64,000 nucleotides of DNA from Acinetobacter sp. NCu2D-2 (GTDB taxonomy: Bacteria > Pseudomonadota > Gammaproteobacteria > Pseudomonadales > Moraxellaceae), in NCBI RefSeq assembly GCF_001647675.1, contig NZ_CP015594.1, positions 2,666,001 to 2,730,000 on the forward strand, given 5' to 3'. Of this stretch, positions 2 through 1,350 are shown piece after piece (positions within the stretch are counted from its first letter, which is position 1; each line of letters begins with the position of its first letter). Below the pieces are notes generated by a model. That model searched no databases, was not told the origin of the DNA, and saw only the letters and a program-made list of their open reading frames with translations. Position numbers and translations under genes: made by a program.

Positions 2-373
2 GTGCTGAAAGGTAAAAATTATGGTTATCCAATCGTTTCTAATGGCGATCATTACGATGGTAAACCTATCCCGAACCATCATACTCGACCGGAATTTGAA
101 GCACCTGCATTGCACTGGACACCGGTGATTTCGCCTTCAAGTTTAATGTTCTATACAGGCCCAGTGTTTCCTCAATGGCAAAATAAAGCCATGGTGACAG
201 GATTGTCTTCTCAAGCGATTGTGATTGTCGATACTGCACAGACACCTGTCAAAGAGATTCAACGCTTAGATATGGGTGCACGTATACGCGGGCTGACACA
301 GGCCAATGATGGCTCACTATGGGCAATTGAAGATGGTCCTCAAGCGAAGCTACTAAAAATTACGGCTAAATAG
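2..373 (+). CDS. PQQ-dependent sugar dehydrogenase, C-terminal part
   Basis: This is the last 123 or so residues of a soluble, PQQ-dependent aldose dehydrogenase of the glucose/sorbosone dehydrogenase family (E. coli YliI/Asd type); the 5' end lies outside the window. The fragment has the family signature GKNYGYP near its start, followed by HYDG and the last blades of the beta-propeller (SSLMFYTG, FPQW, MVTGL, IRGLTQANDGSLWAIED). These enzymes oxidise aldoses in the periplasm using PQQ. The family assignment is good; substrate and full length cannot be judged. The GTG at position 2 is only an internal codon. A TTAAAAAATC/GATTTTTTAA hairpin at 387-423 may end its transcript. Confidence 0.8.
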   Translation: MLKGKNYGYPIVSNGDHYDGKPIPNHHTRPEFEAPALHWTPVISPSSLMFYTGPVFPQWQNKAMVTGLSSQAIVIVDTAQTPVKEIQRLDMGARIRGLTQANDGSLWAIEDGPQAKLLKITAK

Positions 374-386
374 CGAGATGAATTGA

Positions 387-423
387 TTAAAAAATCTTTC
401 ATCTGATATGGAGGATTTTTTAA
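387..423 (+). terminator. Possible terminator of the sugar dehydrogenase gene
   Basis: Arms TTAAAAAATC (387-396) and GATTTTTTAA (414-423) can pair 14 bases after the stop codon, and the right arm contains a T run. The stem is AU-rich and therefore weak. The bidirectional hairpin at 505-523 would act as a back-up on this strand. Confidence 0.4.
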
Positions 424-498
424 ATTTCACTTGATAATAGATTGAGTTTAGGTAGCGATTTTTTTATAAGAAAATAATTTTTTCGATATCTAAATAAG

Positions 499-621
499 AA
501 AAAACCCCGACATCCTGTCGAGGTTTTTTGGATCTTTTATTACAGATACAACTCCTGTCATATCTATCAGCTTCCTGCTGTTTATCTATTGTTATTGTTT
601 CAAGACATCCTGTCTTGCTAT
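499..621 (-). ncRNA. Rsm/Csr-type regulatory sRNA (CsrA-sequestering), new locus
   Basis: Read on the minus strand, this roughly 120-nt transcript holds four hairpins in a row, each showing GGA in its loop: CAAGACAGGATGTCTTG (617-601), CAGCAGGAAGCTG (580-568), GATATGACAGGAGTTGTATC (564-545, 8-bp stem, loop AGGA) and CCTCGACAGGATGTCGGGG (523-505), the last followed by six T as a Rho-independent terminator. ACAGGAUGU is close to the known CsrA/RsmA binding consensus, and the size matches Pseudomonas RsmX/Y/Z. Such RNAs titrate CsrA/RsmA and so relieve translational repression. The predicted start near 621 is set by a TATATT -10 box at 633-628 and by the GacA box upstream. The function is inferred from architecture, not from sequence identity to a known RNA. 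The exact ends need mapping. Confidence 0.85.
505..523 (-). terminator. Rho-independent terminator doubling as a GGA hairpin
   Basis: The stem CCTCGACA/TGTCGGGG (one U-G wobble on the minus strand) closes a GGA loop and is followed by six T (504-499). On the plus strand the same stem has a C/A mismatch but is followed by TTTTTT (524-529), so it can also stop transcription from the left. It is the 3' end of the Rsm-like sRNA. Confidence 0.85.
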
Positions 622-627
622 GTGATT

Positions 628-633
628 AATATA
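628..633 (-). promoter_or_regulatory. -10 box of the Rsm-like sRNA
   Basis: On the minus strand TATATT is placed so that transcription would start near 621, just before the first GGA hairpin. The -35 position (about 656-651, TAGTCG) is far from consensus, which is expected for an activator-dependent promoter such as GacA targets. Confidence 0.6.
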
Positions 634-677
634 AGTTTTTTACCTCTTTACGACTAGCCTCAAATAGCGGCTTCTTG

Positions 678-695
678 TGTAAGTAAATGCTTACA
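678..695. promoter_or_regulatory. GacA box (upstream activating sequence)
   Basis: TGTAAG-TAAATG-CTTACA matches exactly the TGTAAG-N6-CTTACA element bound by the response regulator GacA upstream of Pseudomonas rsmX/Y/Z genes. Its centre lies about 65 nt upstream of the predicted sRNA start, the spacing known for those promoters. The element is symmetric; the sRNA on the minus strand is the obvious target. Confidence 0.85.
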
Positions 696-807
696 TGAAT
701 GTTTAAAAATTCTTCTTCATTGAAAAATCTATTATAAAATCCTGTTAAAACCAAAACTTTATAAGATTTGGAAAGATGGCTTTTATGCTAGCTTTAACCA
801 AATCATT

Positions 808-1350
808 CTAAGCACTAACATATTGAATGAGTTTATCTACCGCAGATTTCAGCGCTTTATTGTCAAAATCATTGCCTTGGAAGGTTTCATCTTTATTGCG
901 TGAGAAAATGTCACGAATCTCGATAACGGCATTGGTATCAACTAAACCAAGTTGTGTACCGACTTGTCGGATTTGATCAATCGAGCGAGAGCCATTGCTG
1001 CCGCCATAACTGATATATGCCGCAGGTTTAGCTTGCCATTCTTTGCCTAAGTAATCGAGTGCATTTTTAAGGGCAGGACTATAGCCATGATTGTATTCTG
1101 GACTGATAAAAATAAATGCATCACCTTGAGCAATTTTATCTGCCCATGCTTGCTGTTTGGGTTGATCATAGATGCCTGTCAGTGGCGGATTTGGACCTGT
1201 AAAAATCGGTAAATCCCATTCTTTTAAATCTACGATTTCTGTATTTAAGGTAGAGAATTGGTAGCTTTGGATTTGATTGAGTACCCAATTGGCGACTTTA
1301 ATGGCTGTACGTCCCTCACGCACACTACCGACGACAATATAAATTTTCAT
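808..1350 (-). CDS. NADPH-dependent FMN reductase family protein
   Basis: This 180-residue flavodoxin-fold protein belongs to the NADPH-dependent FMN reductase/chromate reductase family. It opens with the FMN phosphate-binding motif of the family, VVGSVREGRTAIKVA (residues about 6-20), and has the typical FISPEYNHGYSPALKNALDYLG segment near residues 80-103. It probably reduces flavins or quinones in the cytoplasm with NAD(P)H; the physiological substrate is unknown. It stands alone, between the sRNA locus and the fkpB terminator. It is not linked to the ssu operon and should not be taken for SsuE. The family call is firm and the exact role open. Confidence 0.85.
   Translation of the reverse strand: MKIYIVVGSVREGRTAIKVANWVLNQIQSYQFSTLNTEIVDLKEWDLPIFTGPNPPLTGIYDQPKQQAWADKIAQGDAFIFISPEYNHGYSPALKNALDYLGKEWQAKPAAYISYGGSNGSRSIDQIRQVGTQLGLVDTNAVIEIRDIFSRNKDETFQGNDFDNKALKSAVDKLIQYVSA

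Follow-up and report, generated by a model that had tools for sequence, protein, structure and literature searches.

A predicted GacA-switched, CsrA-titrating small RNA of Acinetobacter and its pdif-linked relatives on plasmids

Introduction

Among the major regulators of Acinetobacter are GacS/GacA and CsrA. RNAs that would join the one to the other have been postulated (PMC12455638) or listed (PMC7366521), not described, in the available text of those two reports. In one strain of A. baylyi the phenotype that follows loss of gacA or gacS requires csrA, and the authors of that study postulate unnamed CsrA-sequestering RNAs (PMC12455638; this and the other articles cited here by PMC number were available as partial texts, and what is drawn from them is limited to those parts).

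The locus studied here raises the question of whether a short intergenic stretch of Acinetobacter sp. NCu2D-2 encodes such an RNA. The stretch lies near the start of the window, by which we mean the whole 64-kb stretch of DNA that was analysed, and a sequence-only reading had proposed that its minus strand encodes a CsrA/RsmA-titrating RNA. The features on which the argument depends are as follows.

2..373, plus strand: glucose/sorbosone dehydrogenase-like protein (PF07995), C-terminal part, the convergent neighbour, cut by the window start (Pfam)
499..621, minus strand: predicted small RNA of the Rsm/Csr type, about 123 nt (its 5' end is deduced from the -10 element and its 3' end from the terminator)
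499..529, minus strand: hairpin 4, the intrinsic terminator, AAAAAACCTCGACA-GGA-TGTCGGGGTTTTTT (fold and terminator scan; stem covaries, helix 3)
542..567, minus strand: hairpin 3, ATAGATATGAC-AGGA-GTTGTATCTGT, with an AGGA loop and an 11-pair stem (stem covaries, helix 2)
568..580, minus strand: hairpin 2, CAGC-AGGAA-GCTG (fold and hairpin scan)
601..617, minus strand: hairpin 1, CAAGACA-GGA-TGTCTTG (fold and hairpin scan; stem covaries, helix 1)
628..633, minus strand: putative -10 element, TATATT (inferred by eye)
678..695, minus strand: predicted GacA-binding box (upstream activating sequence), perfect palindrome TGTAAG-TAAATG-CTTACA (pattern match)
808..1350, minus strand: NADPH-dependent FMN reductase (PF03358), the upstream neighbour and synteny anchor (Pfam)

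Hairpins and promoter region

Reading the minus strand from 621 to 499, and folding it, we find the four GGA-loop hairpins where the sequence-only reading had placed them; its further claim, that the loop of the terminator is itself a GGA site, is borne out by hairpin 4 (529-499), which has a GGA loop, is followed by a T-run and was recovered independently by a terminator scan. The segment 480-640 folds at -40.6 kcal/mol compared with -22.9 (sd 3.1) for its shuffles, a z of -5.6, with 0 of 200 shuffles as low. When hairpins were counted as non-overlapping, with a stem of at least 4 and GGA inside the loop, a 145-nt region held four against a shuffle mean of 0.59, and dinucleotide shuffling produced four just once in 5000 trials. 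The GGA triplet count is by itself unremarkable (4 against a shuffle mean of 3.4, with 2307 of 5000 shuffles reaching as many), so it is the placement of the GGAs in loops that is unusual. The 125-nt stretch with four such hairpins is the sole instance in the window, both strands having been scanned, and the open reading frames that overlap positions 480-700 are of 22-42 aa only.

Upstream lies a feature that went unmentioned in the sequence-only reading, the box at 678-695, which fits perfectly the pattern TGTAAG-N6-CTTACA that we take to be the GacA box consensus. It lies 56 nt upstream of the RNA, its centre about 65 nt before the inferred transcript start (~621). The perfect pattern occurs as a single copy in the 3,048,277-base genome (0 for a reversed-pattern control), and allowing up to one mismatch yields 12 sites genome-wide, this one included, versus 3 for the reversed control; across Acinetobacter, 87 of 99 genomes contain perfect boxes versus 8 of 99 with the reversed control. 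A promoter scan of window positions 370-820 found no sigma-70-like promoter (-35/-10 pair), which would suit an activator-dependent promoter. We note that a box of this kind need not imply an Rsm RNA, since GacA of A. baumannii also binds the promoters of protein genes (PMC10746170).

Covariation and conservation of the family

A DNA search with window positions 499-700 gave matches in 32 of 58 genomes, namely 32 of the 37 that belong to Acinetobacter and none of the 21 that do not, frequently at more than one site per genome. Family members were then collected by nhmmer (hits below 35 bits dropped for the family set, below 30 bits for the synteny and plasmid sets), and 63 copies from the fetched loci were reduced to 41 by removing those at least 90% identical. 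Alignment across Acinetobacter had been proposed in the sequence-only reading as a check on the hairpins, and in the 41-member alignment the stems do covary: 19 of 23 pairs show compensating two-sided changes, a count reached by 0 of 500 shuffles, and 96% of cells are paired in the true structure versus 38-55% when the structure is slid. The CAGGA core of the loops is nearly invariant, its commonest contexts being CAGGATG, CAGGAGT, CAGGAAG and CAGGACG.

By a lenient test (stem of at least 3), the GGA-loop hairpins are kept in 40 of the 41 relatives for hairpin 1, 35 for hairpin 2, 36 for hairpin 3 and 40 for the terminator, and the hairpin 2 position is occupied by 21 different stems across its 35 relatives. 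Under the strict rule (stem of at least 4), plasmid copies show just 1-3 GGA hairpins, as the stems of their hairpins 2 and 3 are short beside the loop, and separate upstream hairpins were not seen in the minimum-energy folds of two relatives (L076, L077).

To obtain a set of loci that did not depend on the RNA, we fetched by the FMN-reductase protein 57 titled Acinetobacter loci and 7 loci from lactobacilli; some of the former are contigs already in set A1 (e.g. L173/L009 and L174/L010). A relative of the RNA lies downstream of the reductase in 51 of the 57 loci by covariance model and in 50 by HMM, starting about 70-205 nt past the end of the reductase match. Of the six loci without a covariance-model RNA, one contig (L207) ends inside the gene and in five nothing was found; the 7 lactobacilli outgroup loci gave a single covariance-model match, of 29 bits. 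Among the 50 HMM loci, 43 have a GacA-like box scoring at least 10 of 12, a score that none of 570 background windows attains, and in 49 the best box-like sequence is found 48-51 nt ahead of the start of the model. The box spacing is made to rest on these synteny-fetched loci and on the plasmid loci below because our first box table was partly circular, some of its loci having been fetched by the box pattern and standing also in its background list; in that table, moreover, L001, L007 and the window are one locus. The synteny loci carry 27 further RNA copies, often in tandem. Tandem copies are also seen in L234 (A. baumannii X4-300, a chromosome-sized 3.97 Mb record labelled as a plasmid), where three, every one of them with a box, fall within some 1.8 kb.

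These data allow two rival accounts to be weighed against that of a CsrA-titrating RNA. The better survivor, which we nevertheless consider improbable, is a small RNA that acts by base pairing (Hfq-type) or derives from a 3' UTR, its GGA loops being incidental. In its favour, an A-rich linker (AAACAA-AATAA type) is conserved along with the loops, and the RNA begins about 186 nt downstream of the FMN reductase, which is encoded on that strand too; against it stand the GGA loop cores, which are among the most conserved parts, and the possession of its own GacA-like box at constant spacing. The RNA may also do both, base pairing and CsrA titration. Less probable again is that the convergent genes are separated by a bidirectional terminator alone, with the remaining hairpins there by chance. 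The terminator stem is indeed symmetric, and terminator-like sites were called on either strand, but the stems of hairpins 1 and 3 (helices 1 and 2) covary independently of it, a GacA-like box stands at fixed spacing, and the unit also occurs on plasmids, away from this gene pair.

Copy number

The RNA belongs to a multi-copy Acinetobacter family. Our own covariance model, R1, built with the window sequence and several plasmid copies, so that those match by construction, found a match, counting weak ones, in 118 of 119 Acinetobacter genomes (E <= 0.01). Strong copies (at least 60 bits) number 0 to 13, with a median of 4 by hand count among the 26 same-genus genomes listed, and these numbers may be lower bounds given the stricter filters and the scoring of 26 candidates in each genome. 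Other Moraxellaceae genera gave weak R1 matches in 56 genomes, the best at 42 bits, the other-genus genomes being taken as 93 (119 minus the 26 of the same genus) and 18 matchless ones being assumed to belong to other genera. We did not count these weak matches as members, since they lie near the level of the fifth hit in the window's own genome.

That genome contains four strong copies, at C1:2597858 (128 bits), C2:159756 (126 bits), the window locus (121 bits) and C2:186608 (95 bits), and the next R1 match scores only 36.6 bits. The window copy itself corresponds to G000:C1:2666487-2666628 on the minus strand, that is, window positions 628-487 (120.9 bits). Two loci show departures from the usual form. 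The copy L130 (G000:C2:186608-186747) has a one-mismatch box at the usual spacing, and its hairpin 3 reads ACATGATGT, with the GGA lost; L131 (G000:C1:2610545-2610678) is a weak, possibly degenerate member with a one-mismatch box, one CAGGATG and a terminator without GGA.

Partner genes and proposed mechanism

The partners expected of such an RNA are encoded in the same genome. There is one csrA (Pfam CsrA, 91.4 bits) and a gacA orthologue with 48% identity to E. coli UvrY (29% for the next match). The best NCBIfam model for this gacA is UvrY/SirA/GacA (NF007018) at 266.5 bits, below the cutoff of 280, with a query that was incomplete (209 of 216 frame residues, the last residues lacking). A gacS-like (BarA-like) kinase is encoded by a 936-residue frame, an assignment that rests on a partial match, 37% identity to BarA over its residues 153-534.

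The hairpins, the unique perfect GacA box, the covariation, the position and spacing kept across the genus, and the finding of csrA, gacA and a gacS-like gene in this genome together lead us to an Rsm/Csr-type small RNA gene, activated by GacA, whose product would sequester CsrA. We put the probability of this at roughly 93%, and the earlier proposal of a CsrA/RsmA-titrating RNA is thereby supported. By analogy with known Rsm and Csr systems, the RNA is presumably made and bound by CsrA. Phosphorylated GacA would bind the 678-695 box and switch transcription on; the RNA of about 123 nt would offer four GGA loops, a number that could accommodate about two CsrA dimers, and, if it works as RsmX/Y/Z and CsrB do, would draw CsrA off its mRNA targets. 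With four strong copies, two of them on the smaller replicon, the output of GacA would be the summed dose of sponge RNA.

Three genomes of 2.4-2.6 Mb (G071, G098 and G186) have no strong copy of the family, yet gacA, a gacS-like gene and csrA are present in each, so the system does not strictly require the RNA. Co-loss of the small RNA and the Gac genes was not found among 16 genomes. Other sponge RNAs may serve in these three.

Relation to known RNAs

Neither the window nor 8 related loci gave a match to any Rfam family at its gathering score, and the earlier remark that the RNA could not be named from a catalogue is true for Rfam. In the Rfam comparison that the sequence-only reading had suggested, the window copy matched no Rsm or CsrB family at E <= 10. 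The same reading had seen no match to RsmX, RsmY or RsmZ; this stands for the window copy, while two relatives match RsmY (RF00195) weakly, at full length and below the gathering cutoff of 57 (L041 at 27.2 bits, L077 at 21.6 bits). As far as the available text of PMC5320573 goes, the RNA does not fall among the C4-antisense-like Group 1 sRNAs of A. baumannii, no Rfam family being found at gathering score. Low-score Rfam matches to the rimP and rnk leaders were set aside, being centred on the terminator.

The closest likeness is to RsmY, RsmX and RsmZ of Pseudomonas, which are alike in size, GGA-loop hairpins, upstream GacA box and the partners CsrA and GacA. The Acinetobacter family differs from them in scoring below the Rfam cutoffs, in being amplified, in its linkage to pdif sites on plasmids, and in having its strong members confined to Acinetobacter among the genomes searched. 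With CsrB and CsrC of E. coli it has CAGGA-type loop repeats in common, CAGGA being the type of the CsrB consensus, but the Acinetobacter RNA is shorter and has 4 sites where CsrB has about 18, and it gave no CsrB match at E <= 10.

An Rsm class was in fact expected, as Table 1 of PMC7366521 lists [RsmX, RsmY, RsmZ] for A. baumannii from genome inspection, as experimentally uncharacterised, citing Kulkarni 2006. Our RNA is probably of the same kind, a comparison made by that listing, which in the available text comes without sequences or loci. We thus assign the RNA of the chromosome to a functional class already known, and see in the amplified family with its pdif linkage a form new to that class. 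No report of a plasmid or pdif form of a sponge RNA was found in the open-licence literature, the papers likeliest to hold prior knowledge being outside it. The family gives defined, multi-copy loci that make the link between GacS/GacA and CsrA testable.

Plasmid copies and pdif sites

The window RNA as query matched 162 plasmid records, all of Acinetobacter, and the box plus RNA of a C2 copy matched 435 records at 540 places. By host these comprise 431 from Acinetobacter, 2 from Klebsiella and 1 each from Citrobacter and Escherichia, and 209 of the 435 match at least 80% of the query; at least one entry of the collection, NZ_CP064203.1 at 3.97 Mb, has the size of a chromosome. A count of 582 records obtained with the query L128:1425-1645 was discarded, as that query took in part of nadS. 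C2, of about 310 kb, is likely a plasmid, because the regions around its two RNA copies match plasmid records in part. The first 3 kb of the window had no match among the plasmid records.

For closer study, 19 plasmid loci were chosen from the listings for variety, not at random. All 19 have a GacA-like box, scoring 9-12 of 12 at a spacing of 48-49 nt, and in all 17 with enough flank a pdif site in constant orientation ends 289-309 nt upstream (L216 and L219 were excluded from this distance count, the fetched stretch beginning too close). Sites resembling pdif number 42 in 70.9 kb of plasmid loci, compared with 3 in 335 kb of chromosomal loci and 0 in the window; plasmids are rich in pdif anyway, and what tells here is that the distance is constant, more than that a site is there at all. 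The interval from pdif to box is conserved and includes a terminator-like hairpin. Across L076-L083 and L215-L227 it is a conserved stretch of about 200 bp with a GCCGAC...GTCGGC-type hairpin and an ATCC-CAATTTCTGCGGA motif before the GacA box.

Downstream, the nearest pdif is inverse in 7 of the 19 loci and in the same orientation in 3, and the other 9 show no such site within the sequence fetched. L077 and L217 have their second pdif 6-8 nt past the RNA, so that the module of about 500 bp contains solely the RNA. These two modules have no annotated gene, the annotation being incomplete, and their open reading frames are of at most 70 aa; the 70-aa frame of L077 overlaps the RNA, and its counterpart in L217 is of 43 aa. 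In the window's own genome, the C2 copy L128 is flanked by two inversely oriented pdif sites, the upstream one at a like distance, and no pdif was found near the window copy or the other C2 copy, L130. To the right of the plasmid RNAs the sequence is variable, with NadS/RelE or other toxin-antitoxin genes, restriction-modification genes and resistance genes (tet(39), OXA-24 or MCA beta-lactamase) among the neighbours.

Given such mobility, one might ask whether the family is a dispersed selfish repeat (MITE or REP-like) and not a gene, as multiple copies per genome, tandem clusters and plasmid copies would allow, but the copies are diverse (41 of 63 survive the 90% identity filter), their stems covary, 51 of 57 loci retain the RNA at its orthologous place and the adjoining pdif offers a simpler means of movement on plasmids, all of which leaves this account the least credible of those considered.

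With the RNA taken as a CsrA sponge, its plasmid form resembles the pdif modules known from Acinetobacter plasmids (Blackwell and Hall 2017, as cited in PMC12442408) in its flanking XerC/XerD sites, which are inverse in 7 of the 10 RNA loci where a downstream site was seen. It differs in cargo, which in the known modules consists of resistance and toxin-antitoxin genes, not a small RNA, in the available text of PMC12442408. Another plasmid factor that reaches into the host Gac/Rsm network is RsmQ, a plasmid-encoded CsrA-type protein of Pseudomonas fluorescens (PMC9928087, partial text). RsmQ adds CsrA-type activity, whereas an Acinetobacter plasmid RNA with its GacA-like box would remove it.

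We speculate, with the odds as we see them evenly balanced, that plasmids exchange GacA-switched CsrA-sponge cassettes as pdif cargo and so raise the sponge dose of the host when Gac is active. The cassette would run in the order pdif, terminator-like hairpin, GacA box, sponge RNA, and a plasmid of even less than 6 kb could raise the dose, with a CsrA-mediated shift in metabolism, virulence-type traits or plasmid transfer. GacS/GacA of A. baumannii controls the conjugation genes of pAB3 as well as central metabolism (PMC10746170), which makes it plausible that a plasmid-borne sponge joins in. If true, this would be a case of plasmid-to-chromosome control via a titrating RNA, not a protein. Should the plasmid copies be functional, the dose of a post-transcriptional regulator with global reach would depend on how many small plasmids are carried, and strains might differ in Gac/CsrA traits because they differ in plasmid content.

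Some individual records are of separate interest. L221, on the Klebsiella oxytoca plasmid NZ_CP033846.1, is a copy of the family outside Acinetobacter, near tet(39); its terminator loop is CATCCTG, the reverse complement, by which the GGA site would be lost. Matches in 'phage' records suggested prophage copies at first sight, but in the two records opened the neighbours (yggS, sbcC, pilT, fabB) are of chromosomal type, and these records are taken to be chromosomal contigs; L081 and L082 (Acinetobacter phage MD-2021a records), with chromosomal-type genes inside, look mislabelled.

Other candidate sponge RNAs in the genome

Two further loci of the same genome contain candidates of this general kind. 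In L044 (G000:C1:312700-313800), a longer, CsrB-like candidate at about 521-760 shows the box TGTACGAAATAGCTTACA together with several GGA motifs, its terminator hairpin also carrying GGA in the loop, and has no Rfam match at gathering score. In L042 (G000:C1:222000-223600), upstream of an rpsO-like gene, lie two tandem candidate small RNAs, each led by a GacA box (TGTAGGCAAATGCTTACA and TGTACGAAATGGCTTACA) and provided with GGA motifs and terminators.
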